Origin: Acidobacteriaceae bacterium
Lineage (GTDB): Bacteria; Acidobacteriota; Terriglobia; Terriglobales; Acidobacteriaceae
Length of the DNA stretch: 64,000 nucleotides
Assembly: GCA_003134995.1 (NCBI GenBank)
Contig: PLDC01000017.1
Location: forward strand, 232,283-296,282
Direction of reading: 5' to 3'
Shown: piece by piece, positions 9,664-53,331 of the stretch
Numbering within the stretch: position 1 is the first letter of the stretch
How the letters are laid out: each line of letters opens with the position of its first letter
Notes under the pieces: model-generated
Databases searched by the model: none
Seen by the model: only the letters and a program-made list of their open reading frames with translations
Told to the model about the DNA's origin: nothing
Position numbers and translations under genes: made by a program

Positions 9664-9741
9664 TGTTAGGGATTAGGAGGCAGGGAATAGGGATTGGCTC
9701 GCCATCGACGTAAATCCCTATTCCCTAATCCCTACCCCCTG
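9664..9741. repeat. Word-type inverted repeat (TAGGGATTAGGG family), supplies a stop codon
   Basis: The left arm (9664-9695) is built from TAGGGATTAGG and GGGAATAGGGATT. The right arm (9712-9741) is the reverse complement, AAATCCCTATTCCCTAATCCC. It sits between convergent ubiE and the epimerase gene. The epimerase stop codon (TAG, 9732-9734 on the minus strand) and its last codons lie inside the right arm. A second member is at 29630-29735. It could also act as a bidirectional terminator. Confidence 0.85.
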
Positions 9742-10790
9742 CTCTTCACGCTATCGGCAAACGCATCCACAATCATATAGCGCATTAAATTCTCGTACTC
9801 GGCGCCCAGAAAGCTCCGCAGCCGATCCGTATTCATAATGTATTCGCCGGTCATATAAGGCAGTGCCTCCGGAGGAATCGCCGAAATCTGCCGCTTCCAC
9901 ATATACTGCAGCACCAGCTTCATCGCCCACTTTCCCGGCACGCGCACCAGTTTCGCCTGCGCCATTTCGATGCAACGTCCGAAGGTAAGTGGCTCACCGC
10001 GCCCAGCCACGTTCAGGATCGTCAGCCGCTGCGCTTCCGGATCGCGATGCAGAATGTGCGCGATCAGCCGTGCCATATCGTCCACGTGCACAAACTGAAT
10101 CTTGTTGTCGAGATACTGCTGCCCGCGCGGCATCATGCAAGGCAGTCGTTTGCCCTCGCTTCGCATTTTTTCCGCCCGCGGGCCCTTGCCATTAATCGTG
10201 CCTCGAAATGCTCCAAGGAGATAATTCTCCACGCTGGCTCCGGCAAAAATATGCGGACGCAGAATGTACACGCTGCATCCTCGCAGCGCCGGTGCGCGCT
10301 GCTGTACCACCTCGTCGGATTGTTTCTTATGAATTGCGTAAGGCAAGGTGTGCGCCGCGAGCACGGATTCCTCCCTCGCTGGCGCCGACAGGCTGGGCCC
10401 GTACGCAGAAACACTGCTCGGGAAAATAAATTGCCGGATCGGATTTTCCGCGGTCCGATTTGCCTCGGTAATAGCTTCCATCACACGCGCCGTACCGGCC
10501 ACGTTGATCTGCCACATGCGTTCGGTATCAAGCACTCCCGTGCGCACCGCATCAATCACAAATGCAAGATGAATCACCGCAACCGGATGCGTCTCGTGCA
10601 GCAGTTCGTAAAACGTCCGCGTGGAAGATTCCTGGCCGAGATCGAGCTGCTCAAACTGTAAAGGTAAATCGGTTTGGGGCGGACTCAAGTCCACCCCAAT
10701 CACCGAGAAATCTCCCAGCAGCGGGAGCAACCTGGAGCCCAGGTTTCCCGCGATGCCGGTGACTACAACGACAGGTTTAGCGCTCTCCAT
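9732..10790 (-). CDS. NAD-dependent epimerase/dehydratase family protein (extended SDR)
   Basis: The 352-residue product has an N-terminal Rossmann motif TGIAGNLGSRLL, the acidic NAD-ribose region VIGVDLS, the active-site serine block FPSSVSAYG and the catalytic YAIHK (YxxxK). This is the extended short-chain dehydrogenase architecture used by nucleotide-sugar epimerases and related enzymes; the substrate cannot be deduced. It starts 15 bases after the PpiC-like gene on the same strand, so the two are probably co-transcribed. The last codons and the TAG stop fall inside a repeat, so the original C-terminus may have been slightly different. Confidence 0.85.
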   Translation of the reverse strand: MESAKPVVVVTGIAGNLGSRLLPLLGDFSVIGVDLSPPQTDLPLQFEQLDLGQESSTRTFYELLHETHPVAVIHLAFVIDAVRTGVLDTERMWQINVAGTARVMEAITEANRTAENPIRQFIFPSSVSAYGPSLSAPAREESVLAAHTLPYAIHKKQSDEVVQQRAPALRGCSVYILRPHIFAGASVENYLLGAFRGTINGKGPRAEKMRSEGKRLPCMMPRGQQYLDNKIQFVHVDDMARLIAHILHRDPEAQRLTILNVAGRGEPLTFGRCIEMAQAKLVRVPGKWAMKLVLQYMWKRQISAIPPEALPYMTGEYIMNTDRLRSFLGAEYENLMRYMIVDAFADSVKSRG

Positions 10791-10805
10791 TTAGCTCGGC
10801 GTACG

Positions 10806-12080
10806 TCAGTTCGGCTTCGCCGGAGCTTGTGTAGCTGGAGCTTGCGCCGGCGTGCTCGGAGCCGGCGGCGTGGCCGGTTGTGCCGCACCCTGCGGCCCTC
10901 CCGGCGGAGTCATCCGCGGACGGCGCGCCGGTCCCGGCGGCGGCGCTGGTCCAAAGTACACCTCGTTCGTTACCGCCTGATACGAATTCGTGTACTTGTC
11001 CATCATCGACTTCAACTGTTCGCCCTTCAGCTTGGTATGGATTTCTTCCTTCACCTGATCCAGCGGCAGAACTTCCTTGCTTACCACTTTGTAAATGTAA
11101 TGTCCGCCATTGTCGCTGATCACTGCGGACACCTCGCCCACTTTCAGATCGAACACCGATGCGTGTGCCGGGGGCAGTCCGGTGCGCCGCACTTTGGGCA
11201 GATTCACCGTCGGGTTATCCACCTTCGTTCCCGCCGCTTCAAACGCATCCTTCTGCAGCTTGATGAAATCCTCACCGCCTACTGCCCGCTGCCGCAGGGT
11301 TTCGGCCAACGCGGTCATCTCCTGCTCGCCTTTTTCCTGCTTCGCCTTGTCCGCAGCTTCTTTGGCCTTCTGCTGTTCGTCCGTCAGTTTCTCGTTCTCT
11401 TTGGCTTCGTTCTTCGCTTCTTCCTTCTCCTCAGCCGTTGCCTGCTTGTTCTTTGGGATGAACAGCCGGTCCAGCGAGAACTGCTCGTACGCTTCAGGGT
11501 TTTCCTTGTAATACGTTTCAATCTTCGCGTCCGGAACCTTGTCCGCATCTTCGCGCACGGAGTCCTGCATCTTCTGCGCAAGAATTCTCATCTTCACGAA
11601 TTTCAGCGTCTCTGTGTAGCCTTCAGTCTTATCGAGACCCTTCTTCTTCGCGGTCTCTGACATAGCGATCGCGCTCGGAAGCTGATTCGCCAGCGTGCGC
11701 TTCTGCTGCGCATTCAGCGGAGTCGGCCCCTGTTGCAGCGCCTTGGTGAGCTTCTCGAACTCGGCCCGCGTGATTACGCAGTCGGTCGGCTTCTTGGCAG
11801 TGGCAGCTGCACCAGTCTTGCCAGCAGCCGCGCCCGTCTTTGCCGCGGCGGTAGACGCAGGCGCGGCGTGGCTGAACTCAGGGCACGAAACACCTTTGAC
11901 GGTAATTACAGCCGCACTCATCGGTACTTCAGCCGGCGCTGCTTCTTTCGGAGCCGCCGCCGGACTAGCCGGAGATGCCTGCTCCGCAGCCGGCGTAGAC
12001 TGCGCCGCCGGCGCTGCTGGCTGCGCTTGTCCCCAAGCCAGCGTTCCCATTAACACACACACCAACCAACTCTTACGCAT
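10806..12080 (-). CDS. Exported peptidyl-prolyl isomerase of the PpiC/SurA type
   Basis: The start at ATG 12080 (MRKSWLVCVLMGTLAW) is chosen over the in-frame 12098 because GGAGGA lies just upstream; the product is 424 residues. After the signal peptide comes a long Ala/Pro-rich linker (about 20-110). An all-helical SurA-N-like region (LNAQQKRTLANQLPSAIAM) and a Lys/Glu-rich coiled segment (about 215-255) follow. A parvulin-like domain comes next (VGEVSAVISDNGGHYIYKVV), then a second Pro/Ala-rich tail. It probably assists outer-membrane or periplasmic protein folding. The catalytic parvulin fold is less conserved than in textbook members, so a purely chaperone role is possible. Confidence 0.8.
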   Translation of the reverse strand: MRKSWLVCVLMGTLAWGQAQPAAPAAQSTPAAEQASPASPAAAPKEAAPAEVPMSAAVITVKGVSCPEFSHAAPASTAAAKTGAAAGKTGAAATAKKPTDCVITRAEFEKLTKALQQGPTPLNAQQKRTLANQLPSAIAMSETAKKKGLDKTEGYTETLKFVKMRILAQKMQDSVREDADKVPDAKIETYYKENPEAYEQFSLDRLFIPKNKQATAEEKEEAKNEAKENEKLTDEQQKAKEAADKAKQEKGEQEMTALAETLRQRAVGGEDFIKLQKDAFEAAGTKVDNPTVNLPKVRRTGLPPAHASVFDLKVGEVSAVISDNGGHYIYKVVSKEVLPLDQVKEEIHTKLKGEQLKSMMDKYTNSYQAVTNEVYFGPAPPPGPARRPRMTPPGGPQGAAQPATPPAPSTPAQAPATQAPAKPN

Positions 12081-12374
12081 ACAAGATTCCTCCATCAAGG
12101 ATTGGTTACATCAGGAAGTTAACAAACTCAACCGATCATCGTAGCATATACGCGGTTCGTCGCAGTAGCCGCGGCTGGGCGTCAGCCACAGCTTGCAAAA
12201 TCCTTCATCTTGACAACAAGTCCGTGGTCTGCCGCATGACCCCACAAACGGTTTACCCTGTGTCCTCTGTGTCCCCTGTGTTAAAGGATGTTGATCTTGC
12301 CGGCGAAGCTACAAGCTAGAAGCTCATGCACCGAATAACTAGCGCAACCCAAGCGAACCAGCGATAATCCCAAC
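12081..12374. other. Divergent intergenic region with repeat fragments
   Basis: This gap separates the divergent PpiC-like and CDF genes and should hold both promoters; no clear -35/-10 pair was found. It contains a one-armed word repeat (about 12257-12288: CCTGTGTCCTCTGTGTCCCC), a relative of the GGACACAGAGG type. It also contains the word string GAAGCTACAAGCTAGAAGC (12305-12323), which resembles the 15-base words at the start of the glycosyltransferase gene at 30680. Confidence 0.5.
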
Positions 12375-19306: not shown

Positions 19307-20248
19307 TCATCTACTTAGCAGAAGCTGAAAATACCTTCGCGCCTTTTTCACGTCGCGAGAAATCTGCTCGCGCAATGCCTCCACCGACGGAAACTTGATC
19401 TCATCGCGCAGCCGGTTGAGAAAACAAATCTCGACTTCGCTCTCGGGCGTCAGCTCAATAGGATGAAAGTTCAGCAGGTGAGTTTCGATGGCAAATGAAT
19501 CGGCGCCAAACGTCGGACGATTGCCCACATTCGTCACGGAATCGAAGCGCTCGTCTGCGACACGCGTCCACGTGATGTAAACGCCATCCTTGGGAACGAG
19601 TTCTTCATAGCGAGCAAGGTTAATGGTGGGCACTGTGTACTTCGAGCCCAGCCCGCGCCCGCGCCCCGGATTGCCCAGAATCGAGAACGGACGCGCCAGC
19701 AGATGCCGCGCCCGGCTTACGCGTCCCTCGCCAATCAGTTTGCGAATGTGGCTGCTAGAAACCGGCTCGCCGCGCAGCTTCTCTTCCGAATAGACTTTTA
19801 CCTCAAAGCCCATCTCCTTCCCGAGTTGCACCAGCAGATTCACGTCACCCGTAGCCTTGTGCCCGAAGCGGAAGTTGTAGCCTTCATGCACTTCCTGCGC
19901 ATGCAGTTTCTTTTTCAGGATGCGCTCGACAAACTGCCGCGGCGTCATCAGCGAGAGATCGCGCCCAAAGGGCAACACGAGCACCGCATCAATGCCGGTG
20001 GTTTCGAGCAAACGAAGTTTTTCAGGTACGGGGGAAAGTAGCTTCAATCCGGAATCCGGCCGCAGAATCCGCGCTGGATGCGGCTCAAACGTCACCGCCA
20101 CAGCCTTGCCACCGGTCTGTCGCGCGCGCCGTACGATCTCGCCCAGCACATGCGCGTGCGCCCGGTGCACTCCATCAAAGTTGCCCACGCTCACCAGCGA
20201 CGGCCCAAATCCCGCCGGAACGTCTTCGAGTTTGTGGAAGACCTGCAT
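19307..20248 (-). CDS. ribF: Bifunctional riboflavin kinase/FAD synthetase
   Basis: This enzyme phosphorylates riboflavin to FMN and adenylylates FMN to FAD. The start at ATG 20248 (MQVFHKLEDV) is preferred over the in-frame TTG 20257; the product is 313 residues, the usual length. The N-terminal nucleotidyltransferase domain has GNFDGVHRAHAHVL and the late SSSHIRKLI. The C-terminal riboflavin kinase domain has RPFSILGNPGRGRGLGSKYTVPTINL (key residues GxGRG and PTxN) and the substrate loop VTNVGNRPTF. Its upstream gap carries a word-type inverted repeat. Confidence 0.96.
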   Translation of the reverse strand: MQVFHKLEDVPAGFGPSLVSVGNFDGVHRAHAHVLGEIVRRARQTGGKAVAVTFEPHPARILRPDSGLKLLSPVPEKLRLLETTGIDAVLVLPFGRDLSLMTPRQFVERILKKKLHAQEVHEGYNFRFGHKATGDVNLLVQLGKEMGFEVKVYSEEKLRGEPVSSSHIRKLIGEGRVSRARHLLARPFSILGNPGRGRGLGSKYTVPTINLARYEELVPKDGVYITWTRVADERFDSVTNVGNRPTFGADSFAIETHLLNFHPIELTPESEVEICFLNRLRDEIKFPSVEALREQISRDVKKARRYFQLLLSR

Positions 20249-20265
20249 ACGCGACAATCAAGACC

Positions 20266-20384
20266 AAGAGCTCACCGCAGAGGACGCGGAGGACGCGGAG
20301 AAAATTCTAATTCTTCTCAGAACCCTCGGATCCTCAAAGTTGCTCCGCGTCCTCTGCGTCCCCAGCGGTGAAAGTTCTTGCTTT
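20266..20384. repeat. Word-type inverted repeat (CCGCAGAGGACGCGGAG, 'TAEDAEDAEK' family)
   Basis: The left arm (20266-20305) reads AGAGCTCACCGCAGAGGACG plus a second GGACGCGGAG word. The right arm (about 20339-20384) holds CTCCGCGTCCTCTGCGTC and AGCGGTGAAAG. Between them lies about 33 bases of loop. In translation it yields LTAEDAEDAEK, a familiar spurious peptide. It separates the MBL-fold gene from ribF. Confidence 0.85.
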
Positions 20385-20394: not shown

Positions 20395-21168
20395 TCAAAT
20401 CTCAAACTCCAATTTCATCCCGTCATAAGCCAGCCGCACATTCGACGGCAGCGAAGCGTTTGTCGTCTCATGCGGAAGATCGTGGCAAATGTGGGTGAAG
20501 AATGCGCGCTTCGGCTTTACGCGATCCACAATGCGCAGCGAATTTTCCACCGTCGAGTGAGTGGGATGCGGCTTGTGGCGCAGCGCATCCAGAAAAAGAA
20601 TGTCGAGGTCTTCGAGTTGATGAAACGACGTCTCAGGTATTTCACTGTGATCGGTGAGATACGCGGCGTTTCCAAAACGGTAGCCATAAATTTCCGTCTC
20701 GCCATGAATCAGCCGCACCGGCTCGAAGCGCGCACCGAAAAGCTCCAGAGGACCGTCAATCGGCTTTAACTCAAGCTGGGGCAGGCTGCCATATTTGTAA
20801 TCCGCATCGAAGATGTAGCTGAACATCTTGCGCAGAAAAGCTGCCGCATCGGGACGCGCGTAGAGCGGCAACTTCGCCGGCTTGTGATAGAAACTAAGCG
20901 GCCGCAGATCGTCGATGCCAAGAATGTGGTCGGCGTGAGTGTGCGTGTAGAAAACCGCATCCACGCGCGTGATCTGTTCGCGAATGGCCTGCGCGTAGAA
21001 ATCTGGCGAAGTGTCAATCAGAACAACTTTGCCCGCGTACTCAATCATCACCGACGGACGCGTGCGCCGATCGTGGGGATCAGTCGAGCGGCAGACCGCG
21101 CAGTCGCAGCCGAGCGTGGGCACGCCCATCGATGTACCGCTGCCGAGCACTGTGAGAGTAGCTTTCAT
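20395..21168 (-). CDS. Metallo-beta-lactamase-fold hydrolase (PhnP-like phosphodiesterase)
   Basis: The 257-residue protein has the metal-binding signature THTHADHILGIDDL, a further metal Asp/His region AYLTDHSE and a late FFTHICHD. An N-terminal zinc-knuckle-like CDCAVC is typical of the PhnP branch (cyclic phosphodiesterases). The true substrate may be a cyclic phosphate or a lipoate-linked reaction; some relatives are annotated near lipoate genes. It starts at ATG 21168 and lies between two word repeats in a minus-strand gene series. Confidence 0.85.
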   Translation of the reverse strand: MKATLTVLGSGTSMGVPTLGCDCAVCRSTDPHDRRTRPSVMIEYAGKVVLIDTSPDFYAQAIREQITRVDAVFYTHTHADHILGIDDLRPLSFYHKPAKLPLYARPDAAAFLRKMFSYIFDADYKYGSLPQLELKPIDGPLELFGARFEPVRLIHGETEIYGYRFGNAAYLTDHSEIPETSFHQLEDLDILFLDALRHKPHPTHSTVENSLRIVDRVKPKRAFFTHICHDLPHETTNASLPSNVRLAYDGMKLEFEI

Positions 21169-21200
21169 GAGGTAACCATCATTTTTGCTCGTGAAGAAAA

Positions 21201-21327
21201 GTGGTCAGTGGCTAGTGGTCAGTGAAAACCTCTCGGACCGGCCACGGGTAACTCATCGCTGATTCGAACGTCCGATGCTGCCGGCATCCTCAAGGGGTTT
21301 CACTGACCACTGAACACTGACCACTGC
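21201..21327. repeat. Word-type inverted repeat (CAGTGGTCAGTG family)
   Basis: The left arm (21201-21230) is GTGGTCAGTGGCTAGTGGTC followed by AGTGAAAACC. The right arm (21296-21327) is GGTTTCACTGACCACTGAAC followed by ACTGACCACTG. About 65 bases of unrelated sequence form the loop. It lies between the DUF1844 gene and the MBL-fold gene, both on the minus strand. Confidence 0.85.
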
Positions 21328-21328
21328 C

Positions 21329-21958
21329 TTACCTACCGATGGTACCTGTCGCCGCTCCTGGCTGCGGCGGGCGCGACAGCGCGTTCGTGACTTCCACGTA
21401 GGCCATGCGCACTTCGTAGAGGCTGTTTTGCAAGAATGCTTCTTCGGTTGGAGTGAGGTTGCCCTTCGTTTTTTCCGCGATCAGAGAAAGCGTGTCGATG
21501 CTTTGCCGCGCGCCCATGATGTCAATGCGAGGCTGGCTGCCTTGCTCGTGCATCAATCCCAACTGCAGCATCGCCGTCATGTACAACGACGCGAGGAAGC
21601 GCGCGAAAGTCATCTCAAACTCTTTGGCCGAGCGGCCACTGAGTTCGACGCGCGAATCCAAATCTTTCGAGGATGCACGGTAAGCATCGGCCTGCGCCTG
21701 CTGCTCAGACGCAGTGGGAGCGGGAGGAATTTCCGGGCCGGCAGCTCCGTCATCCGCCGCCGGGAACGCAGCCACAAGGTTCGCGGCGGGTGCAGTTTCT
21801 GTCGCCGCGGTTTGATTCGGAACTGGAGCCGCAGCGGGAGGCGTCGTAGTCTGAGGCGGCGCTGTTTGTTCCGCCGCATCTTTCCGCAACTCTCCGTCTT
21901 CAGTGAACAAGCGGCGGTCGGTTACTGTGAAACCTGATTCTTGTCTCTTCTCAGCCAT
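21329..21958 (-). CDS. DUF1844 domain protein
   Basis: The start at ATG 21958 (MAEKRQESGFTVTDRRLF) gives 209 residues. The N-terminal motif FTVTDRRLFTEDGELR and the C-terminal helical pair are hallmarks of DUF1844 proteins: FARFLASLYMTAMLQLG and ARQSIDTLSLIAEKTKGNLT...EEAFLQNSLYEVRMAYVEV. A long Pro/Ala/Thr-rich linker separates them. Function is not established; it is common across acidobacteria and deltaproteobacteria. The stop codon is immediately next to the repeat at 21201-21327. Confidence 0.8.
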   Translation of the reverse strand: MAEKRQESGFTVTDRRLFTEDGELRKDAAEQTAPPQTTTPPAAAPVPNQTAATETAPAANLVAAFPAADDGAAGPEIPPAPTASEQQAQADAYRASSKDLDSRVELSGRSAKEFEMTFARFLASLYMTAMLQLGLMHEQGSQPRIDIMGARQSIDTLSLIAEKTKGNLTPTEEAFLQNSLYEVRMAYVEVTNALSRPPQPGAATGTIGR

Positions 21959-23209: not shown

Positions 23210-23647
23210 CGGAATATTGATTATAGCGAAGAGAGCAGTTGCCAGCCGTCAGCTTCCAGTTGCCAGTTTCTCGAGGCTTGCAATGTGAAGTATGCGCGCG
23301 GAGACAAACTGGCAGCTGACGGCTAGCAATCGTCAACTGTTTAGATTCAGCAACTTCCACCAAGACTCAACAACTTCCACCGGAAATCAATGACTTAGCC
23401 AGAAGTTAACGCTAGGGTGCCCTCCGTTCGATTCTAGCGGCTCGCGCTTTCGGGAGGATGTTGGGGTCCACCCAGGTCTGGAAAGTCGCTGTACGCGATT
23501 CCTAGGTGCCGTAGCGTCGATCTGTCACATGGGGTCGAATGGGGATTCGAGCTTTGCACCCCTTGCGACGGGCGGGCCGGCATATAGCTACTAGTAAAGA
23601 CTGGCGGCAACCTACTCATTCGGCTTGGCTTGTGTTAGCTTTTTGCC
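23210..23647. other. 438-base divergent intergenic region with inverted and direct repeats
   Basis: This lies between divergent ygfZ and the dehydrogenase gene. It holds the word-type inverted repeat listed separately and two direct copies of CAACTTCCACC (23351-23361 and 23371-23381). No ORF with plausible coding character, no tRNA and no clear promoter consensus were seen in the remaining bases. Confidence 0.6.
23235..23339. repeat. Word-type inverted repeat (CAGTTGCCAG family)
   Basis: The left arm (23235-23270) is CAGTTGCCAGCCGTCAGC followed by TTCCAGTTGCCAGTTTCTC. The right arm (23300-23339) is GAGACAAACTGGCAGCTGAC followed by GGCTAGCAATCGTCAACTG. The arms are imperfect reverse complements around a 29-base loop. 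It follows the same design as the other word repeats but with a different word. Confidence 0.8.
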
Positions 23648-24742
23648 GTGGACTCGCAAAAACCTTCCAAAAAACGTATTGCGGTCATTCCCGGAGATGG
23701 GATTGGCCAAGAAGTCATCCCTCAAGCTCTTAACGTGATCAGGGCATCGGGCGCTGATGTCGAGATCAGCGAATTCGACTGGGGCGCCGACCGCTATCTT
23801 CGCGACGGAGTGACGGTTCCTCCCGACGGCTTCGCCATGCTTGGGCGTGACTTCGATGCGATCCTCGCCGGCGCGTTCGGCGATCCTCGCGTCAAGACGA
23901 ATATTCACGCCAAAGAGATCCTCCTCGGCATGCGCTTCAAGATGGACCTCTACGCCAACGTGCGGCCGGTGCGGCTGCTCGATGCGGCGCTGTGTCCGCT
24001 GAAGGGCGTTGAGCCGAAGGATGTGGATTTTGTCGTCATTCGCGAAAACACCGAGGGCGTCTACACCGATGCCGGCGGCGTGTTCAAACAGGGCACGCCC
24101 GATGAGATTGCGATTCAGGAAGACATCAACACGCGCAAGGGAGTCGAGCGCATTATTCGCTACGCGTTTGAGTATTGCGAGCGCCACACCAAGCTCGACG
24201 GATCGCCGCGTTCGCGCGTGTTGATGTGTGACAAGTCGAATGCCATGACGCATGCCGGGGGATTGTGGCAGCGCGTGTTTAAAGAGGTGAGCGGCGAGTA
24301 TCCGCAGATTGCGACGCAGCACATGTATGTGGACGCGCTGTGCATGCAGATGGTGCGCGATCCCCGCGGCTTCGATGTGATTGTGGCCAATAATATGTTT
24401 GGCGACATCATCACCGACCTCGCCGCCGGGCTGCAGGGCGGGCTCGGCATGGCGGCCAGCGGAAATATTCATCCCGGGAAGACCTCGATGTTTGAGCCGG
24501 TGCACGGGTCGGCGCCGCCGATTGCGGGCAAGAACGTGGCGAATCCGTTTGGCGCGATTCTGACTGCGGCCATGATGCTGGCGCATTTGGGATTAGCGCG
24601 CGAAGCTGAAAAGATTGACGCTGCAGTGCTCGAGGCCGTGCGGCAGAAGAAGACCACGCAGGATGTTGGCGGGAGTCTTGGCACGCGCGAAGCCGGGGAG
24701 TGGGTAGCGAAGCAGGTAGGCCGCGCGACCGTGTCATCCTGA
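23648..24742 (+). CDS. Isocitrate/isopropylmalate dehydrogenase family protein
   Basis: The 364-residue protein starts at GTG 23648 and belongs to the beta-decarboxylating dehydrogenases. Visible motifs are VIPGDGIGQEV, the substrate block DLYANVRPVRL, RENTEGVY, the metal-binding DALCMQMV...FDVIVANNMFGDI (key Asp residues) and the nucleotide region EPVHGSAPPIAGKNVANP. RENTEG is more typical of isocitrate, homoisocitrate or tartrate dehydrogenases than of LeuB, and no leucine genes are nearby, so the substrate is left open. The last codons and the TGA stop are part of the TGTCATCCTGAGC repeat end, which suggests the original C-terminus was replaced when the repeat arrived. Confidence 0.9.
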   Translation: MDSQKPSKKRIAVIPGDGIGQEVIPQALNVIRASGADVEISEFDWGADRYLRDGVTVPPDGFAMLGRDFDAILAGAFGDPRVKTNIHAKEILLGMRFKMDLYANVRPVRLLDAALCPLKGVEPKDVDFVVIRENTEGVYTDAGGVFKQGTPDEIAIQEDINTRKGVERIIRYAFEYCERHTKLDGSPRSRVLMCDKSNAMTHAGGLWQRVFKEVSGEYPQIATQHMYVDALCMQMVRDPRGFDVIVANNMFGDIITDLAAGLQGGLGMAASGNIHPGKTSMFEPVHGSAPPIAGKNVANPFGAILTAAMMLAHLGLAREAEKIDAAVLEAVRQKKTTQDVGGSLGTREAGEWVAKQVGRATVSS

Positions 24743-24993
24743 GCGAAGCGATAGCTTCGCATACGCGAAGCCGTCGCGCAGTCGAAGGACCCCTACGCAG
24801 ATGGCAGTGGCACGACGGTCTCAGGGAATTCTTCCTCGTGTGGCGACGGCACGATATATATGCCTGGGAAAATGGAGTGAGGCTGCGCTGTGAGAACTCC
24901 CGGCTGGGCCTCTGGCAGCTTGAGCAGGCATGGGGTCCTTCGACTTCGCAGTCGGTTCGCTATCGCGAACCGCCCGCTCCGCTCAGGATGACA
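24732..24993. repeat. MITE-like element with 62-base terminal inverted arms
   Basis: The outer ends are TGTCATCCT (24732-24740) and AGGATGACA (24985-24993). The inner arm ends are GTCGAAGGACCCC (24781-24793) and GGGGTCCTTCGAC (24932-24944). Each arm is 62 bases and contains its own small hairpin (AAGCGATAGCTTCGC on the left, GGTTCGCTATCGCGAACC on the right). The 138-base centre has no recognisable gene. The left end supplies the stop codon of the preceding dehydrogenase gene. No transposase is present, so mobility would be in trans. Confidence 0.8.
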
Positions 24994-27275: not shown

Positions 27276-27323
27276 CAGTTCTCAGTTCTCAGTTCTCAGT
27301 TCTCAGTTCTCAGTTCTCAGTTT
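27276..27323. repeat. Tandem heptamer (CAGTTCT)x6
   Basis: Six exact CAGTTCT units run from 27276 to 27317 and a partial seventh (CAGTTT) follows. They begin three bases after the stop codon of the HExxH protein, between convergent genes. There is no reverse-complement arm, so this is a tandem rather than a hairpin version of the word repeats. The copy number is likely to vary. Confidence 0.95.
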
Positions 27324-28762: not shown

Positions 28763-29629
28763 GTGGCTCAGGCGGAGATTGGGATTATCGGCGGAAGCGG
28801 GCTTTATTCCATGCCTGGGCCGAGCCGGGTTAAAGAAGTGCGGGTGAAGACGCCGTTTGGCGCGCCTTCGGACGCTTACGTTTGCGGAACGCTCGAAGGG
28901 CGCAAGGTCGCGTTTTTGGCGCGGCATGGGCGCGGGCATCGAATTCTGCCGAGCGAACTGAATTTCCGCGCGAATATTCATGGGTTCAAGCAGTTGGGAG
29001 TTTCGAGGATTGTTTCCGTTTCCGCAGTGGGGTCGCTGAAGGAAGAACACAAGCCGCTGGAATTTGTGATCCCTGATCAGTTTTTCGATCGCACGCGGCA
29101 TCGCATCGATACATTTTTCGGCAATGGCGTGGTGGCGCATATTGCGTTTGCCGATCCGGTGTGCGGCGAATTGGCGGGCGTGGTCGAGGCCGCTTGCAAA
29201 CGAGCCGGAGTGACGGGCAAGCGCGGCGGAACTTATTTGTGCATGGAGGGTCCACAGTTTTCAACCAAGGCGGAGTCGAATGTGTATCGCGGGCTGGGCA
29301 TGGATGTAATCGGCATGACTAACCTGCAGGAGGCGAAGTTGGCGCGCGAAGCCGAGCTTTGCTACGTCACGGTGGCGATGGTGACGGATTACGATTGCTG
29401 GCATCCGCATCACGACTCGGTCACCGTGGATCAGATTGTCGCGGTGCTGGTAAAGAATGCGGAGAACGCGGCGAAAGTGGTGCGCGAGACCGTGGCGGCG
29501 ATGCCGCGGGAGCGGTCGTGCAAGTGCGGGTCGGCGCTGGCGCACGCAATTTTGACGGATTCGAAAAAGATTCCGGCAGCGACTCAGAAGAAACTCAAAT
29601 TGATTATTGGAAAGTATGTGAAGGGATGA
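28763..29629 (+). CDS. mtnP: S-methyl-5'-thioadenosine phosphorylase family
   Basis: This family phosphorolyses methylthioadenosine (or inosine/guanosine in related enzymes) to the free base and a ribose-1-phosphate, salvaging purine and methionine sulfur. Signatures are [10 protein letters not shown], the phosphate-binding [39 protein letters not shown] and the specificity region [15 protein letters not shown] with VTDYDCWH. The [13 protein letters not shown]-terminus and a GGGAGG sequence at 28753-28758 favour GTG 28763 (288 residues), although TTG 28751 is in frame. The downstream PfkB kinase is on the same strand across a repeat. Confidence 0.9.
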
Positions 29630-29735
29630 GGCTAGGGGTTAGGGGCTAGGGATTAGGGCAGGTCGGACGCGCCGATGAGGTCACTTCGGTTCGCTGCCCT
29701 ATCCCCTATTCCCTATCCCCTGCTCCCTAGTCCCT
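29630..29735. repeat. Word-type inverted repeat (TAGGGGTTAGGGGCTAGGGAT family)
   Basis: The left arm (29630-29661) is GCTAGGGGTTAGGGGCTAGG followed by GATTAGGGCAG. The right arm (29694-29735) is CTGCCCTATCCCCTATTCCC followed by TATCCCCTGCTCCCTAGTCCC. A 32-base loop separates them. It is the second member of the TAGGGAT family (first at 9664-9741) and fills most of the gap between mtnP and the PfkB gene. Confidence 0.88.
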
Positions 29736-29757
29736 CGCGAGGCAGAGTTAATCCATC

Positions 29758-30681
29758 ATGAGCATAGTGGTTGTCGGTTCGGTTGCGTTTGATGACATCG
29801 CGTCGCCATCGGGCAGCGTGAAGGGGATATTGGGCGGCGCGGCGACTTACTTTTCGCTGGCGGCCAGCTATTTCACTCAGGTGCGGATGGTTGCCATTGT
29901 CGGCGACGACTTTGGCGTGGAGCACGAAGAAGTCCTGAAAAAGCGCGGAGTCGATACGCGCGGGATCGAGCGCGCTTCTGGAAAAACATTTCGCTGGGGC
30001 GGGACTTATGCTGAAAATCTCAACGAGGCCAAGACTACCTTTACCGATCTGAATGTGTTTGAAAAATTCCAGCCGCGCATTCCGAAAGAGTACGAAGACA
30101 CGGAGTTTTTGTTCCTGGCGAACATCCAGCCGACGTTGCAGGCCAACGTGCGCCGTAAGATGAATGGCGTGCGGTTCACGGGATGCGACACCATGAATTA
30201 CTGGATCAACGGCGCGCGAGCGGAACTGGCCGAGACCCTGAAGCTGGTTGACGTGCTGTTGATCAACGACACCGAGACCAAGATGCTGTCGGACGAAAAA
30301 AACCTGCCGCGCGCGGCGCAGAAGGTGCTGGCGATGGGTCCGCAGGCGCTGGTGATCAAGCACGGCGAGTATGGGGCTACGATTTTCTTTCGGGAAGGCG
30401 CGTTTGGGCTTGGCCGGCATCCGTTTCGCGCGCCGACTTTGCCGCTCGACGAAGTGAAGGATCCTACGGGAGCGGGTGATTCGTTTGCCGGTGGGTTCAT
30501 GGGCTACGTGGCGTCCCAGGAAACGTTGAACCGCGAAGTGTTGAAGCGGGCGCTGTTCTATGGTGGAGTGATGGGATCGTTCGCCGTAGAAAGTTTTGGC
30601 ACGGAGCGGCTGCAATCCCTGACCCGGGAAGAAATTGACGCGCGCTTTCAGATTTTTCGCGAGCTAACCCACCTCGAATGA
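29758..30681 (+). CDS. PfkB-family carbohydrate/nucleoside kinase
   Basis: The 307-residue protein has the ribokinase-type fold. Visible are the N-terminal VVVGSVAFDDI, the early Gly-Gly GILGGAATYFSLAA, a nucleotide region VIKHGEYGATIF and the catalytic DPTGAGDSFAGGFMGY, where the Asp is the base. The family phosphorylates sugars or nucleosides. Its neighbour mtnP produces a ribose-phosphate and a purine, so adenosine, ribose or methylthioribose are conceivable substrates (inference only). The stop overlaps the next start by four bases (ATGA). Confidence 0.88.
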   Translation: MSIVVVGSVAFDDIASPSGSVKGILGGAATYFSLAASYFTQVRMVAIVGDDFGVEHEEVLKKRGVDTRGIERASGKTFRWGGTYAENLNEAKTTFTDLNVFEKFQPRIPKEYEDTEFLFLANIQPTLQANVRRKMNGVRFTGCDTMNYWINGARAELAETLKLVDVLLINDTETKMLSDEKNLPRAAQKVLAMGPQALVIKHGEYGATIFFREGAFGLGRHPFRAPTLPLDEVKDPTGAGDSFAGGFMGYVASQETLNREVLKRALFYGGVMGSFAVESFGTERLQSLTREEIDARFQIFRELTHLE

Positions 30682-32477
30682 AGCCGCAAACCTCGAAGCT
30701 ACAATCCCGGAAGCTGCAACTCCCGAAGCCGCAAACTGGGCCCGCTAGGCCGTATTCCGATATTGAGATCGTGCGGTTGATCTGGCTTGCGATCTTCGTC
30801 TCGGTATTCTCCTTTCTTTTTTTCTATCGCAGCGGAGATGTGTTGCTTTACGGCGATGCCGTGGCGCACATCAACATCGCGCGGCGCGTGTTCGATTCGA
30901 AAACTCCCGGGCTGCTGCAGTTGGGAACGGTGTGGTTGCCGCTGCCGCACCTGTTGATCATGCCGTTCATCGTGTCGATGCGGATGTGGCAGGGCGGATC
31001 GGGCGGGTCGATTCCGTCGATGGCGGGGTTTGTGTTTGGAGTGCTGGGAATATTCCGGCTGGTGCGCGGGATGCTTTGGCGCGGAGCAGCGGATGGTGTG
31101 CCGAACGATAATAATAATAACGGAGTCGCTACGTTTGGAGCGTGGGCTGCGGCGCTGGTTTATGGCGCGAATCCTAATCTGATTTACATGCAGGCGACTG
31201 CGATGGGGGAGTCGCTGTATCTCGCATTTTTCATTTGGGCGGTGGTTTATTTCGCCGAGTTTGCGCGCGGAGGGGTGAAGGTTAATCGATTACTGACTAA
31301 GTGTGGGTTGTATTTGTTTGCAGCTTGTTTGACGCGGTATGACGGATGGTTTCTGGCGGGGGTTTTGGTGGTGGGGGCTGTGGTGGTTGCGGCGAAAGCC
31401 CCACCCTTCGGCTCCGCTCAGGGCAAGCTTCTCACAAAAGACGCGAGAAATGGGGCACCCACAATCTTGCGGCCCTCGCGAAAAACGATAGCAAAATTTG
31501 TTGTGATCGCAATTGCCAGTCCCGCGCTTTGGCTCGCTTACAACGCGGCCGTCTATCGGAATCCCTTGGAGTTCGCGCAGGGGCCTTACTCGGCGAAGGC
31601 GATCGAGCAGAAAACGGCGACGGTGAATCCTGCGAAAGGAAATCTGTTCGCTGCCGGATCGTATTTTCTAAAGGCGGCGGAACTGGATGTGGGACAGTCG
31701 AACTGGGTAGGACGGCTATGGCTGGCGCTGGCTCTCGTGGGAAGCCTGGCGGCCGCATTCGGCGGGCGCGGCCGTGTCGCGTTGCTGCTGTGGGTGCCGC
31801 TTCTGTTTTACGCGCTGTCGGTAGCGCATGGCAGCGTGCCGATTTTCGTGCCAACGTGGTGGCCGTTTTCTGAGTACAACGTGCGCTACGGATTGCAACT
31901 GCTTCCGGCCTTCGCGGTGTTTGTGCCGCTGGGGATTGTGTTCATGGTGGAATTCGCGATCAAGATTCGCCAGGCTGAAGTTTTGTGGGGGAAGTGGGCG
32001 CCCGTAGCGGCGCTGGCTGGTGTATTCGTGACCGTGCTTGCGAGCTATGCTGCGATCTGGCGCGCGCAGCCAATCTGTTATCGCGAGGCTGAGAGCAACA
32101 TGCGCGGGCATGCGGCGCTGGATCGGCAACTCGCGGGCTGGCTGAAGTCATTGCCGTCGGATTCCGCGCTGCTGATGTATTTGGGCGAACACTCGGGGGC
32201 GCTCGAGCAGGCGGGCATTCCGTTGCGGCGAACGATCAACGAAGGCAATCATCGCGTGTGGATGCGGCCGGTCGATCCGGACGGATTGTGGGAGCGAGCT
32301 CTTGCCGACCCAGAGGCGCATGCGGATTATGCGATTGGGTTCGACGGCGATCCGGTGTGGGCGGCGGCAGAAGATCGTCATTTGAAGGCACTGGTCGTGA
32401 TTCACACAACAGGGCAGCCGAGTGCCGGAGTGTTTCAAGGACGCAATCAGATGCACGGCCTTGAGCCGGCGCGGTAA
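30678..32477 (+). CDS. Multi-pass membrane protein of the GT-C glycosyltransferase type
   Basis: The 599-residue protein has about ten hydrophobic helices. An early periplasmic loop contains GDAVAHINIARRVFDS, the acidic motif characteristic of GT-C transferases such as ArnT/PMT and oligosaccharyl transferases, which use polyprenyl-phosphate sugars. Acceptor and donor are unknown. Two oddities are visible. The first 20 residues are encoded by four 15-base words (KPQTS, KLQSR, KLQLP, KPQTG), and residues around 242-250 (PPFGSAQGK) come from a 'SGQA' repeat. ATG 30678 overlaps the PfkB stop, but the real start could lie after the word repeat. Confidence 0.75.
   Translation: MKPQTSKLQSRKLQLPKPQTGPARPYSDIEIVRLIWLAIFVSVFSFLFFYRSGDVLLYGDAVAHINIARRVFDSKTPGLLQLGTVWLPLPHLLIMPFIVSMRMWQGGSGGSIPSMAGFVFGVLGIFRLVRGMLWRGAADGVPNDNNNNGVATFGAWAAALVYGANPNLIYMQATAMGESLYLAFFIWAVVYFAEFARGGVKVNRLLTKCGLYLFAACLTRYDGWFLAGVLVVGAVVVAAKAPPFGSAQGKLLTKDARNGAPTILRPSRKTIAKFVVIAIASPALWLAYNAAVYRNPLEFAQGPYSAKAIEQKTATVNPAKGNLFAAGSYFLKAAELDVGQSNWVGRLWLALALVGSLAAAFGGRGRVALLLWVPLLFYALSVAHGSVPIFVPTWWPFSEYNVRYGLQLLPAFAVFVPLGIVFMVEFAIKIRQAEVLWGKWAPVAALAGVFVTVLASYAAIWRAQPICYREAESNMRGHAALDRQLAGWLKSLPSDSALLMYLGEHSGALEQAGIPLRRTINEGNHRVWMRPVDPDGLWERALADPEAHADYAIGFDGDPVWAAAEDRHLKALVVIHTTGQPSAGVFQGRNQMHGLEPAR
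30680..30739. repeat. Four tandem 15-base words at the start of a gene
   Basis: GAAGCCGCAAACCTC, GAAGCTACAATCCCG, GAAGCTGCAACTCCC and GAAGCCGCAAACTGG follow one another without gaps. The first overlaps the start codon of the glycosyltransferase gene. Because 15 is a multiple of three, the unit count can change without shifting the frame. Confidence 0.8.
31403..31430. repeat. 'SGQA' dispersed repeat inside the glycosyltransferase gene
   Basis: CCCTTCGGCTCCGCTCAGGG followed by CAAGCTT shares its first 22 bases exactly with the intergenic copy at 50649. It lies in frame in a loop between predicted membrane helices and encodes PFGSAQGK. Confidence 0.8.
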
Positions 32478-42094: not shown

Positions 42095-43129
42095 TTACTC
42101 TTTTGGAATCTTCGCTCGCAATGCGCGCGCCATTTCCGGCAACTTCGGCAGAATCGCTGAATACTTTAACCACAACTTGTGATCGACAGCAGGAGCGCCG
42201 CTGACCAGCGCGTTCGGGGGAATGTCATTCGCTACTCCGCTTTGCGGCGTGACGATCGCGTTATCGCCGACCTCGCAATGTCCAACTACGCCGACTTGGC
42301 CAGTGAGAATCACTCGAGCGCCGATCTCCGTCGAACCTCCAAGACCTACCTGCGAGCAGAGCAAAGCATCTTCGCCGACCTGCGATCCGTGGCCGACTTG
42401 GACGAGGTTGTCGACTTTCACTCCGCGGCGAATGCGGGTTTCGCCTACGCTGGCGCGATCGATGCAGGAGTTCGCCTGAATTTCCACGTCGTCCTCAATG
42501 ACGACTGGAGCGGGTTGGGGAATCTTGTACCAACGTGCTTCTTTCGTCTTGGCGAAGCCGAAGCCGTCGGAGCCGATCACGACTCCGTTGTGCAGCAGGA
42601 CGTTGTCGCCGATGCGGCAGTTTTCGCGGACCACCGCGTGCGCGTGCGCGAAGAAGCTGTTGCCGATCTTCACTCCGCGATAAATCACGACGTGAGCTAA
42701 CAACACAGCATCGTCGCCGATCTCGACGTTCTCGGTGACGACTGCGTAAGGGCCGATGTGCGCGTTCTTTCCGACTTTCGACGTTGGGTCGATGACCGCT
42801 GTGGGATGAATTCCAGGCGCATAGCGCAGCGGCTGATGAAAGAGTTCGAGCGAGCGCGCGAAACTTAAATAAGCATCTTCGACACGCAGCGTCGCCGCAG
42901 GGATGACAGGAAAATTTTCAGCGACGATTACAGCTGCCGCTTTCGTATGCCGCGCTGCGGAAGCATATTTCTGGTTGGCCACGAAGGTGATCTCCGAGGG
43001 GCCGGCTTCTTCGATGCCGTTGAGGCCGGTGATCTCGATATCGATGATCTCGGAATCGATGATCCCGGAATCGAGCGAGCCCTTGTCGAGGCGCGCGTTG
43101 AGGGCGGAGGCGATCTGAGAGAGTTTCAT
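42095..43129 (-). CDS. lpxD: UDP-3-O-acylglucosamine N-acyltransferase
   Basis: LpxD adds the second acyl chain in lipid A synthesis, so this organism makes a lipopolysaccharide-type outer membrane. The 344-residue protein has an N-terminal uridine-binding domain and a left-handed beta-helix of hexapeptide repeats (from about 110, e.g. [33 protein letters not shown]). The catalytic His lies in [15 protein letters not shown]. The N-terminal loop contains a 15-base tandem duplication ([15 protein letters not shown]). The ATG is preceded directly by an 8-base inverted repeat and no clear Shine-Dalgarno. Confidence 0.95.
43043..43072. repeat. 15-base tandem duplication within lpxD
   Basis: GATGATCTCGGAATC (43043-43057) is followed by GATGATCCCGGAATC (43058-43072), with a shorter partial copy before it. 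It lengthens the N-terminal loop of LpxD by in-frame units (IIDSE-type pentapeptides). Confidence 0.7.
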
Positions 43130-49622: not shown

Positions 49623-49785
49623 AATCCAACACCAATGGGATTTAACGTTAGCCGGGGGAGACGATAATAGCGACCTGAAGGCGGTGCGATCGTTTTGCCG
49701 TGCGCAGTCCAGCCGGACGACTGCCGTGTCTGCGCTGCACTGAGCCGCGTTCGCGGTGAGGCCATCGAAGGTTCGTCGCGCCAAG

Positions 49786-50265
49786 TCATTCTTCGAACAG
49801 CGTCACTTGGCGCTGGTCGTCAGTTGGACCGCGGCGGGGACGGCGGCTGGCTCCGATTACCGCCAGCACCGTCAGGGAATCGAGCGCGGTGCGCGGGACG
49901 AAGATGCGCTGTGTGTTCGAGCGTTGGTCGGGAGGGTTTACCAGATAACCTTCCGGCAGGTTTTGGGTTAGGTCAGAGGGCATCAGGCCTTCGAGGATTT
50001 CGTTGTCTTTGAAACGTAGGCGAACCCAGAGACCTTCGGAGCGCGGACGCGATGTAAAAGTTTTGCGGGTCAGGGATTCGGAGTCGCCGAACTCGCGGAC
50101 GAAGTAGACGCCTTTGATCTCGCGCAACTCCATCGCGACCACGTTGCCCGAGGTGTTCAACAGTTCCAACTTGCCTTCGTTCACGAACTGCGTAGGCGAG
50201 ACATAGCCGGAGACGGAATCGCGGTCCATCTTGCGGACAATGACTTTCTTGTGGGTCGAGGGCAT
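49786..50265 (-). CDS. Conserved hypothetical protein
   Basis: The 159-residue protein is predicted cytoplasmic and mostly beta-strand, with no signal peptide or membrane helix. Visible segments are KKVIVRKMDRDSVSGYVSPT, MELREIKGVYFVREFGD and LWVRLRFKDNEILEGLMP, which suggest a small beta-barrel fold; I do not recognise a named family. Its start codon ATG 50265 sits two bases from the arm of a word-type inverted repeat, which leaves no obvious Shine-Dalgarno; ATG 50229 is an alternative. It is convergent with the patatin gene. Confidence 0.6.
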   Translation of the reverse strand: MPSTHKKVIVRKMDRDSVSGYVSPTQFVNEGKLELLNTSGNVVAMELREIKGVYFVREFGDSESLTRKTFTSRPRSEGLWVRLRFKDNEILEGLMPSDLTQNLPEGYLVNPPDQRSNTQRIFVPRTALDSLTVLAVIGASRRPRRGPTDDQRQVTLFEE

Positions 50266-50266
50266 G

Positions 50267-50399
50267 TGTCGGGCTTCGGGCTTCGGCTTTCGGGCTTCGG
50301 CTCCAGCGGAAACCAGTATCCGGATGCCCGAACTAAGCGATCCCAGATTCGCAATTCCAGATTCAGCCGAAGCCCGACGCCCGAAAGCCGAAGCCCGAC
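50267..50399. repeat. Word-type inverted repeat (CGGGCTTCGGGCTTCGG family)
   Basis: The left arm (50267-50302) is TGTCGGGCTTCGGGCTTCGG followed by CTTTCGGGCTTCGGCT. The right arm (50365-50399) is AGCCGAAGCCCGACGCCCGA followed by AAGCCGAAGCCCGAC. The 62-base loop is unrelated sequence. It directly precedes the hypothetical gene's start codon on the minus strand. Confidence 0.88.
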
Positions 50400-50484
50400 C
50401 ATTCTCGCACTAATTCGCGGAAAATCGCGGGAATCCACGTTGGCAGTAGCCAAAATGTTAACCTTGTGTTATTCCTTTAAGTTG

Positions 50485-50561
50485 CCTTGGCGTGACTCAA
50501 GTCTTTGGTAAGTGTTTTCCATTGAATCACTTGAGTCCGATTGGCTGCCGAATCGCCAAGG
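50485..50561. promoter_or_regulatory. Nested inverted repeats, possible structured leader or operator
   Basis: CCTTGGCG (50485-50492) pairs with CGCCAAGG (50554-50561). Inside it GACTCAAGT (50494-50502) pairs perfectly with ACTTGAGTC (50529-50537). CGATT (50538-50542) can pair with AATCG (50551-50555), competing at two bases with the outer stem. This predicts a three-stem junction in RNA or overlapping binding sites in DNA, in a divergent gap. No family match is known to me. Confidence 0.5.
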
Positions 50562-50648
50562 TTGGGCCGAGTCATCCTGTGGAAATCTTGTGGAAAACGG
50601 TGGGTGCTGTTGGGCGTTGGATGCTGTCCGAAATTCTTTCACAGAGTA

Positions 50649-50673
50649 CCCTTCGGCTCCGCTCAGGGCAGGC
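50649..50673. repeat. 'SGQA' dispersed repeat (intergenic copy)
   Basis: CCCTTCGGCTCCGCTCAGGG followed by CAGGC is identical for 22 bases to the copy inside the glycosyltransferase gene at 31403. It translates to LRLRSGQA in one frame, a common spurious peptide. Confidence 0.85.
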
Positions 50674-50750
50674 ATAGGATTTCACAGGGGTAAGGCAGCA
50701 CATTGGATCGCGCGGTTCGTAGTGGCTTGATTTGGAACGTTTGACGACGA

Positions 50751-52337: not shown

Positions 52338-52438
52338 ATTGTCAGATAGATGACTGCTACGGTGTCGCAATCCCGGTACTGTCCTAATTCGTCTCGTGAC
52401 AGGTACTAATTTCTGCATCGGCCGGGCTGAATCGGGCA

Positions 52439-52444
52439 TATAAT
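52439..52444 (+). promoter_or_regulatory. Candidate -10 element of the Gly-rich protein gene
   Basis: TATAAT (52439-52444) overlaps the ATG at 52443 and lies seven bases before ATG 52452. Transcription would then begin at or just before 52452, favouring that start and a leaderless mRNA. Confidence 0.45.
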
Positions 52445-52451
52445 GGTTGGT

Positions 52452-53192
52452 ATGCATCGATCGCTTTTCATTGCGGCGCTCGTGCTCTTGATAGTCTCCG
52501 CGCCTCTTTCCGCGCAACACGGCGGCGGCCACGCGTCCGGTGGCGGCCACGGCGGTGTGGGTGGCGGGCATGGCGGTTTTGGTGGCGGTCACGCTTTCAG
52601 CGGAGGCCACGCTGGTTCCGGTTATGCGGCGCGTCCATCCGCGCGCGGCTATGCTTCCCGTCCTGCAATTTCTTCTCGCGGCATCAATCGAGGGGTTAAC
52701 CGCTCTGGCGTTGGTGTGCGGGCGCGCAGCAACGGCCTGAGGAATCGCTACGGTTACGGTGCGTACGGTTACCCGTGGCTGTACGGCGGGTTATACGACC
52801 CGTACTGGTGGTGGGATTCTGGCGCGTCGTTCGACTACGAAAAGCAATACGAGACTGGCCTGGCGAACGAGATGAACGAGCAGAGTCTCGATCAGCAGAG
52901 GCTGCGTGCACAGGCCGCACAGGCCGATCAGGATGTTTATGCGAAGTCGACGCCTGTGCCGATGCGCGCAAAAGAACATTCGGATATTTTGCCGGCCACA
53001 GTGCTGGTTTTCCGCGATCAGCACAAACTCGAAGTTCAGAACTACGCCATAGTAGGCCAGACGTTGTGGAATTTTGCGCCGGACCATACGCAGAAGATTC
53101 CGCTCTCTGATATCGACCTTCCGGCGACCACCAAAGTTAACGACGAGCGCGGCGTGGATTTCCGCTTGCCAAGGGCGGGCGAAGGGCAGTAG
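52452..53192 (+). CDS. Exported Gly/His-rich protein of unknown function
   Basis: The start at ATG 52452 (MHRSLFIAALVLLIVSAPLS) is preferred over 52443, which overlaps the -10 box. The 246-residue product has a signal peptide and a Gly/His-rich segment (GGGHASGGGHGGVGGGHGG) that could bind metal ions or form disordered surface material. An aromatic Tyr/Trp/Gly segment follows (GYGAYGYPWLYGGLYDPYWWW), then a folded C-terminal part (LPATVLVFRDQHKLEVQNYAIVGQTLW). The C-terminal portion recurs in several acidobacterial exported proteins; the function is unknown. Confidence 0.7.
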   Translation: MHRSLFIAALVLLIVSAPLSAQHGGGHASGGGHGGVGGGHGGFGGGHAFSGGHAGSGYAARPSARGYASRPAISSRGINRGVNRSGVGVRARSNGLRNRYGYGAYGYPWLYGGLYDPYWWWDSGASFDYEKQYETGLANEMNEQSLDQQRLRAQAAQADQDVYAKSTPVPMRAKEHSDILPATVLVFRDQHKLEVQNYAIVGQTLWNFAPDHTQKIPLSDIDLPATTKVNDERGVDFRLPRAGEGQ

Positions 53193-53265
53193 CCGTTCGC
53201 AGCCTGCGTAGTGCGCCGTACTCTGTGGATAACTTGCCGGTTGTTCCCACGTGGTTTCCCGCTAG

Positions 53266-53331
53266 AATGATTGTTGATTTCTGATTGATTGCGTTTTTCA
53301 ATCGACAATCAGCAATCATCAATCGGCAATT
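53266..53331. repeat. Word-type inverted repeat (AATCGGCAATC/GATTGTTGATT family)
   Basis: The left arm (53266-53293) is AATGATTGTTGATTTCTGAT followed by TGATTGCG. The right arm (53294-53331) holds AATCGACAATCAGCAATCAT and CAATCGGCAATT. It ends five bases before the dnaE ATG, so dnaE has no visible Shine-Dalgarno other than within this repeat. Confidence 0.82.

Follow-up and report, generated by a model that had tools for sequence, protein, structure and literature searches.

A likely class of dispersed extragenic hairpins with polar arms of short repeated words in an acidobacterial genome

Arrays of short repeated words have been described between the genes of several bacteria; the sources are cited here for the parts of their text that were available. 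In Xanthomonas, the heptamer GGGAATC forms intergenic arrays, often as convergent pairs that make up an inverted repeat, with 70 instances in Xcc and 75 in Xac; their copy number varies between species and they are under-represented between divergent genes (Rehm et al. 2015, PMC4692102). Geobacter metallireducens contains the Gmet_I classes 1–3, in which short words repeated in tandem are paired with others on the opposite strand at a variable distance, with several words in one genome (GTTGCTYN ×4, TCTCCGTS[Y] ×3 and MTYCTGA ×5), and the proBA spacer of G. sulfurreducens carries a different repeat than that of G. metallireducens (PMC2700814). Likewise, direct repeats of TAACTGA occur as intergenic heptamer arrays in Beggiatoaceae, Cyanobacteria and Bacteroidetes, with a patchy distribution across phyla and with mixed heptamers in Microcystis (PMC4679880). 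Repetitive extragenic palindromes (REPs) of the GTAG/CGTC type and acidobacterial Y1 genes are treated in PMC3733652, and DRT10, a bacterial telomerase-like reverse transcriptase, carries out the RNA-templated addition of tandem repeats of 9 nt (PMC12632851). The papers found describe heptamer arrays for one word or a handful of words each, from unrelated phyla and without a process explaining them. Here we describe hairpins with arms of short repeated words in a stretch of 64,000 nucleotides (hereafter, the window) from an Acidobacteriaceae bacterium (assembly GCA_003134995.1, contig PLDC01000017.1; C29:232283-296282 of a genome of 5.62 Mb in 29 contigs), and in its relatives. Because one genome holds more than ten words under a single design, with ordinary miniature inverted-repeat transposable elements (MITEs) as a built-in control, arm, loop and polarity can be separated and the origin of the repeats becomes testable.

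We consider it very likely that these elements are a class of dispersed extragenic hairpins, each made of two polar word arms. Each arm repeats a word specific to its family, usually a heptamer, in a short array; it has a preferred outer phase in the larger families and often ends on its inner side in a run of A (AAAA, sometimes AAAACC). Two such arms in inverted orientation enclose a loop of 0–149 nt, as measured within a search span of up to 160 nt, which widens the range of 1–65 bases given in a first-pass annotation of the window. Arms belong to genome-wide families and loops do not, and the element present at a given spacer varies between species.

The abundance of the elements was estimated in 856 kb of the same genome (15% of the total; C23:1-520000 and C29:1-336282). 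A simple inverted-repeat scan retrieved 47 and 25 palindromes with a score of at least 14 on the two contigs, compared with 0–3 per shuffle (five dinucleotide shuffles per contig), and 45/47 and 21/25 of them were intergenic according to gene calls that are crude and that also underlie the spacer lengths given below. Over these 856 kb, the scan for word-loop-inverted-word structures that had been proposed on first inspection gave 45 palindromes of periodic arms, with 39 spacers holding one, or roughly 300 per genome by extrapolation. Arms were internally repetitive at z ≥ 3.6 in 43.6% of 149 palindromes, versus 1.4% of shuffled arms. The period was 7 or 14 in 54 of 66 periodic-arm palindromes from this genome and 55 loci of relatives, and the word length of 6–12 bases initially assigned to the class therefore does not hold at large. 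Intergenic tandem arrays showed the same preference, with 45 of period 7, eight of period 8 and no more than three of any other period from 5 to 12; including three outside spacers, there were 48 period-7 arrays, against none in one shuffle. An exact inverted 9-mer lay within 260 nt of 25 of the 54 intergenic arrays of period 7–9 (35 of 1100 random places); among the remaining 29, imperfect partners were seen by eye for some, and the class includes unpaired arrays. Elements occurred in 28/336 tandem, 6/93 convergent and 5/89 divergent spacers, and the difference in frequency between divergent and other spacers was not significant (p 0.66).

Clustering by shared 8-mers showed that the words are mostly not confined to one place. 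The largest cluster in the genome, TTAGCTC/GTCGTTG, links 13 elements, followed by CACGGAG with five, CGGGCTT with four, CAGTTCT, CAGTGGT, CAGCTCT and CGCAGAGGA with three each, and GTAATTGA and GGCTTCC with two each; single elements include those of GTACCTG and AGGTCTT. Most of these more than ten words lack runs of three G, which are found in the TAGGGAT and CGGGCTT types. The loci in the window carry different words because the window samples different families. The first-pass annotation was thus right in seeing one design with several words, but the words are not private to a locus: the larger groups are dispersed families, and two words were traced into 12 genera each. A CAGTKST-loop-inverse pattern was present in 22/150 genomes from 12 genera, and a CACNGAG pattern in 16/120 genomes, also from 12 genera; CACNGAG palindromes were absent from the 11 non-acidobacterial genomes examined. 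Separately, CAGTTCT arrays of about four units occur on large plasmids of two other phyla, one of Paraburkholderia graminis (L207) and one of Rhodococcus sp. (L208). Words on plasmids were set aside on the strength of these two, where the arrays are unpaired.

The families also have a nearly fixed polarity. Pairs of elements sharing a word in this genome were in the same sense in 51 cases and in opposite sense in none when matched by 9-mers, and in 55 versus two cases when matched by 8-mers. Over 83 periodic palindromes from this genome, the relatives' loci L069–L148 and genomes G128 and G176, skipping orthologues, 104 pairs were same-sense, three opposite and one both ways. Likewise, the opposite polarity of the CAGTKST and CACNGAG patterns was found in 0/150 and 0/120 genomes, respectively. 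This near-fixed polarity would not result from a direction-blind placement of arms or from simply flipping a tandem array. The earlier proposal of a process that amplifies words and flips them predicts both polarities, and it does not fit these two words; nor does it fit the arms, since the resemblance between an element's own two arms barely exceeds that between arms taken from different elements. The mean local alignment score was 21.2 within elements and 19.5 between elements of the same family (37 elements, 244 arm pairs), under a detection that favours similarity within elements.

Arms and loops behave differently. Using three ordinary MITE families of the same genome as control and z > 4 as the criterion of similarity, none of 51 pairs of same-word loops were similar (mean z 0.64), versus 7/25 loop pairs within MITE families (mean z 7.1) and 1/1804 pairs across families. 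Across three genomes rich in near-identical CAGTTST hairpins, loops were similar in one of 53 pairs, probably due to word remnants left in the loop. BLAST comparison of loops of at least 25 nt with the 856 kb did not reveal a donor for word elements beyond matches of 17–28 nt. Two GTCGTTG elements have left arms that are identical over 27 nt, and their right arms and loops are different. On the whole, then, arms come from a family pool and loops do not. Copies of a MITE are alike from end to end, including the internal part, which is not what we found. Loops and arms together rule out a single REP or MITE consensus, in agreement with the first description of the window.

On the 5' arm, AAAA was found at 27/114 inner ends versus TTTT at 4/114, whatever the word, and non-periodic palindromes showed no such bias (5/80 for each); among 48 CACNGAG elements, inner ends read AAAAC in 16/96 and GTTTT in 0/96. 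At the outer side, 36 of 40 CAGTTST ends fell within three adjacent phases of seven, a figure not attained in any of 20,000 simulations, although these ends come from a word-initial pattern search that possibly helps the phase. Seven of ten GTCGTTG outer ends were in one phase (p 0.004), and the preference was borderline for CGGGCTT (p 0.02–0.03) and TTAGCTC (p 0.04–0.06).

The exchange of words between relatives was followed at the spacer between the gene for an MBL-fold metallohydrolase (20395..21168, minus strand) and ribF, for a bifunctional riboflavin kinase/FAD synthetase (19307..20257, minus strand), selected for the element that the window carries at this place. Relatives were found through ribF, whose best matches belong to Candidatus Sulfotelmatobacter and other Acidobacteriaceae/Terriglobales assemblies; the host itself is close to Candidatus Sulfotelmatobacter (Acidobacteriota). 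Labelled by eye, and with some of the labelled spacers one-armed, the 53 relatives contained CAGTG in 12, CGCAGAG (K) in 14 (15 with the window), CGGACCTC in five, GATTG in four, the non-word GCGGGCG in three, AGGGG and CACGGA in two each and GTTTCTG in one, with none or another in ten. On the ribF tree of 54 rows these labels need at least 23 changes, where the theoretical least is 8 and shuffled labels need 34.0 on average, with none of 200 shuffles as low as 23. Already the nearest relative, L069, has CAGTG where the window has K. A strict scan of 55 loci (844 kb) found 18 palindromes at the ribF spacer and 45 elsewhere, the latter mostly without periodic arms. In genus g22, a CAGTTST hairpin of genome G164 is missing from the orthologous spacer of G195, with flanks 82–84% identical. 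As for the comparison of loci between strains that had been suggested, words differ across species at one spacer, and the close pairs (L087/L088, L073/L074 and G128/G176, the last 94.2% identical over 98 kb) have too few word elements for counting gain and loss.

Two further observations concern the same spacer. In L087/L088 and L106 it holds non-word palindromes of the GCGGGCGCCCTCGCCCGC type, whose stem and 71-nt loop are well conserved between L087 and L088 at 92% identity. In L076, L086 and L098, by eye, the stop codon of the upstream MBL gene comes from the word array (GAAATC-AGTGGTCAGTGA and similar); a small deletion seems to have preceded this.

Any mechanism must account for why the period is 7, why there is one polarity, why stems end inside in an A-run, why loops are unrelated and why words are exchanged repeatedly at one spacer. 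Our preferred explanation, which we see as plausible but tentative, is that these are REP/REPIN-like dispersed hairpins (REPINs being hairpin-forming REP pairs) whose arms are drawn from a genome-wide pool and added in a fixed direction around a local loop. The spreading unit would be the arm and not the whole hairpin, and a source of fixed sense would supply arms to either side of an interruption between genes. This two-sided directional addition is possible but doubtful as a step. The interruption might be a break, with arms added at both 3' ends; the outcome would be word-loop-inverted word in one polarity, around an unrelated loop of local or filler sequence. One-sided addition would leave a plain tandem array, and copy number could be altered afterwards by heptamer slippage. 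Addition to both 3' ends is the simplest scheme we have seen that might yield polarity, outer phase and unrelated loops together, and as such it is a conjecture we would not favour at better than one in a few. More specifically, and as a long shot, the hairpins could be scars of break-capping, in which both 3' ends of a break in a gene spacer received family-specific heptamers telomerase-fashion, copied by an enzyme from a single-stranded (RNA) template, and were then joined through filler; if so, polarity, the preferred outer phase, the variable inner end, unrelated loops and the period of 7 would all follow.

Several results weigh against this explanation. Polarity is not absolute, since CGAGTTT words run both ways in G128 and G176, which also qualifies the polarity case against amplification and flipping. 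A double-stranded array as template would give both polarities, and a sense-fixed single-stranded template must therefore be assumed; neither enzyme nor template was found. Spacers with and without an element have median lengths of 142 and 141 on the crude gene calls, which is not as simple insertion predicts. The G164/G195 site is the sole empty site, too diverged at its 82–84% identity to show the junction, and further extra sequence lies beside the G164 element. No outer phase was seen in CAGTTCT (p 0.31–0.83), CAGTGGT (0.52–0.85) or CAGCTCT (0.39–0.76), and the search pattern may have contributed to that of CAGTTST. Between G176 L203:3301-3600 and G128 L192:19501-19760, the inner stem of one spacer differs in both arms, by an 8-nt word change in one and by changes that match it in the second, which hints at templating between arms. 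Finally, in ribF orthologues the own arm paired better than a foreign one in 20/30 comparisons for K and 10/12 for GATTG, versus 56.5/110 for CAGTG and 9.5/20 for CGGACCTC (taking 6/14 K, 4/4 GATTG, 11/12 CAGTG and 5/5 CGGACCTC loci); these counts indicate no tie between arms in two word groups and some in the other two.

Among the alternatives, we regard as unlikely, if the least so, that whole hairpins of the REPIN or MITE type are moved by a trans-acting Y1 transposase, similar to REP-associated tyrosine transposases (RAYTs), or by another transposase, with loops diverging fast, e.g. when hairpins are cut and repaired. In favour of this are the dispersed inverted pairs located in spacers, the preferred outer phase of larger families and the conserved polarity, and REPINs also have less conserved spacers (PMC3116915, in the text available). 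Moreover, the genome has eight Y1_Tnp genes, one of which (L001) lies between two unpaired period-7 arrays of different words (L001:1038-1086, TCAGCAT, and L001:2186-2211, AAGCTAG), and a Y1 match was present in 24/24 genomes tested. However, same-word loops were never shared, even though arms can match over 27 nt and MITEs of the same genome do share loops, and loops of 0–149 nt contrast with GI REPINs, whose invariant 16-mers are 71 bp apart (PMC3116915, same text). None of the eight Y1 loci had a period-7 word palindrome in the 2.3–3.3 kb around the gene, and period-7 arrays over all eight were not in excess (two found, 1.6 expected), for which reason an origin by RAYT was rejected. Y1 numbers did not differ (p 0.6) when the 11 genomes that showed the two word patterns were compared with the 13 that did not, a grouping by these two patterns only, and the element-rich G164, with 15 CAGTKST pattern matches in at least nine distinct places, has one partial Y1 match. 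The Y1 genes of L003, L006 and L008 are near ordinary palindromes (GTGGAAGAGCGGC, TTTGGGTGGCGCAGCGCC and GGGTGCCCCGTCCTT) that look like REPs or terminal inverted repeats of those genes themselves. For a reverse transcriptase, the other enzyme suspected in the first-pass annotation, as for the Y1 transposase, no clear link was seen. Of two RVT_1 matches in the genome, one is a retron-type reverse transcriptase (best model RT II-A) and the other, a long open reading frame (ORF) read by eye, is a putative group II intron maturase; neither was identified as a telomerase-like repeat adder. RVT_1 matches occurred in 8/11 genomes with and 6/13 without the two patterns (p 0.24), and elements occur without any RVT_1 match in G164, G091 and G011. 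An origin by a reverse transcriptase of the RVT_1 type is not supported by the two matches of this genome or by the element-rich G164; the enzyme of our preferred scheme may be outside RVT_1, or since lost.

Two other explanations appear improbable, and about equally so. Local self-organisation, in which slippage expands words and template switching at quasipalindromes copies one arm to the other, so that any spacer would drift to a palindrome of its own words, agrees with the variation of words within arms and between orthologues, with the coordinated change of two arms in one close pair, with the local loops and with the unaltered length of spacers with elements; on the other hand, it leaves aside the occurrence of the same words at unlinked loci and in 12 genera in one polarity, and arms hardly more alike within than between elements. 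Selection for a function, as RNA hairpins, terminators or paired sites for global regulators, with words free to change while pairs persist, is suggested by the large share of the spacer that elements fill (median 58%, 39 spacers), by the ribF spacer, with a word or palindrome element in 43/53 relatives (by eye, including the three non-word and some one-armed cases) while words change, and by the paired sites of G. metallireducens, interpreted as sites of IHF/HU-type regulators (PMC2700814, in the text available). Nevertheless, TTTT followed the stem at 4/90 ends against a background of 3.1%, and with no excess of T-runs intrinsic terminators were ruled out; spacer types did not differ significantly in the comparison of divergent spacers with the rest, an Rfam search of the window at gathering thresholds gave no match, own arms paired no better than foreign ones in two of four orthologue groups, and the many words per genome would need many binders. 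Lastly, chance was ruled out by the shuffle controls of the genome scan and of seven loci of the window, and it is next to inconceivable that chance or assembly artefacts created the class: many relatives are metagenome assemblies, but the 47 and 25 palindromes far exceed their shuffles, and the 22 and 16 genomes with the same design all have a completeness of 90% or more and a contamination of 5% or less.

The seven palindromes first noticed in the window, around 9664, 20266, 21201, 23235, 29630, 50267 and 53266, and the tandem version at 27276 were all confirmed. At each of the seven, shuffling one arm 2000 times never gave pairing as good, and one or both arms were internally periodic, with a best period of 7 at 9664, 23235, 29630 and 53266, of 9 at 20266, of 14 at 50267, and of 14 and 7 in the two arms of 21201. 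The TAGGGAT palindrome (9660..9742, period 7) is between convergent genes, a ubiE-type methyltransferase gene (8877-9653, plus strand) and an ORF of the epimerase family (9732-10790, minus strand), and on its right it runs into the called end of this ORF. The element of the ribF spacer (20271..20372) has the word CGCAGAGGA with period 9. It is followed by a CAGTGGT palindrome (21200..21329, period 7) with inner ends GTGAAAACC and GGGTTTCAC, one of CAGTTGCC/CAGCCGT (23236..23340, period 7), one of TAGGGGT (29629..29736, period 7), one of CGGGCTT (50267..50401, period 7/14) and one of GATTGNT (53268..53334, period 7) directly upstream of dnaE; those at 29629 and 53268 are imperfect and needed gapped alignment. 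The unpaired array (27276..27322, plus strand) consists of 6.7 copies of CAGTTCT with 100% matching and is just past a stop codon. An eighth palindrome of the same design and of the CGCAAAGGA/ACGTCAAG type, absent from the first-pass annotation, is located at about 5084..5175. A stricter ungapped scan of the window gave eight palindromes scoring at least 12 (0–3 in 20 shuffles), four of them with periodic arms (none in 20 shuffles). The window also contains an ordinary palindromic element, not a word hairpin, at 24732-24993, of the TGTCATCCTGAGCGAAGCG type, with arms of 62 nt that are 76% complementary, and elements of this type recur in the same genome and in G128/G176. Period-15 tandem repeats lie within called ORFs at 30680-30734 and 43030-43074.

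Our literature search, which left most subscription papers and supplements outside, did not yield an account of a many-word hairpin class, and six word strings themselves retrieved no paper. Similar single words are already in print for Xanthomonas and G. metallireducens, and the many-word design seems, to judge from this search, not to have been described. The elements share with the GGGAATC type the intergenic location of heptamer arrays (45/48) and, for two words and with the exception of the CGAGTTT family, the convergent pairing; most of their words are not of the G-rich kind capable of forming quadruplexes, and, unlike in Xanthomonas, their deficit in divergent spacers is not significant (PMC4692102). 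That study deals with one word type, and many words per genome, loops tested against MITEs, a word-independent inner A-run and exchange at one spacer are not reported in the text available. The Geobacter word TCTCCGTS[Y] is the complement of the acidobacterial word CACGGAG; there, the pairs were read as binding sites of unidentified global regulators (IHF/HU), and the text available does not treat polarity or word exchange as features of a class (PMC2700814). For TAACTGA repeats, unlike for these hairpins, a role in translation has been proposed (PMC4679880, in the text available). DRT10 is a defence system whose available description does not mention chromosomal word hairpins (PMC12632851), and no DRT10 candidate was identified in this genome. 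With REPs and REPINs the elements have in common that they are dispersed extragenic inverted pairs that form hairpins and have a fixed polarity (PMC3116915 and PMC3733652, in the text available). They differ in that no link with Y1 was seen, the spacing is not fixed and there are many words per genome; also, by eye, the GTAG tag begins none of 88 outer ends in an inspection for GTAG and not for CGTC (one end has gtag directly adjacent on the outside), and these ends start instead with family words (CAGTT, GTCGTT, TCGGGC and others). In all, it is a reasonable if unsettled possibility that the elements work like REP/REPIN hairpins, in that they spread and are tolerated between genes, without a link to a RAYT or a conserved hairpin unit.

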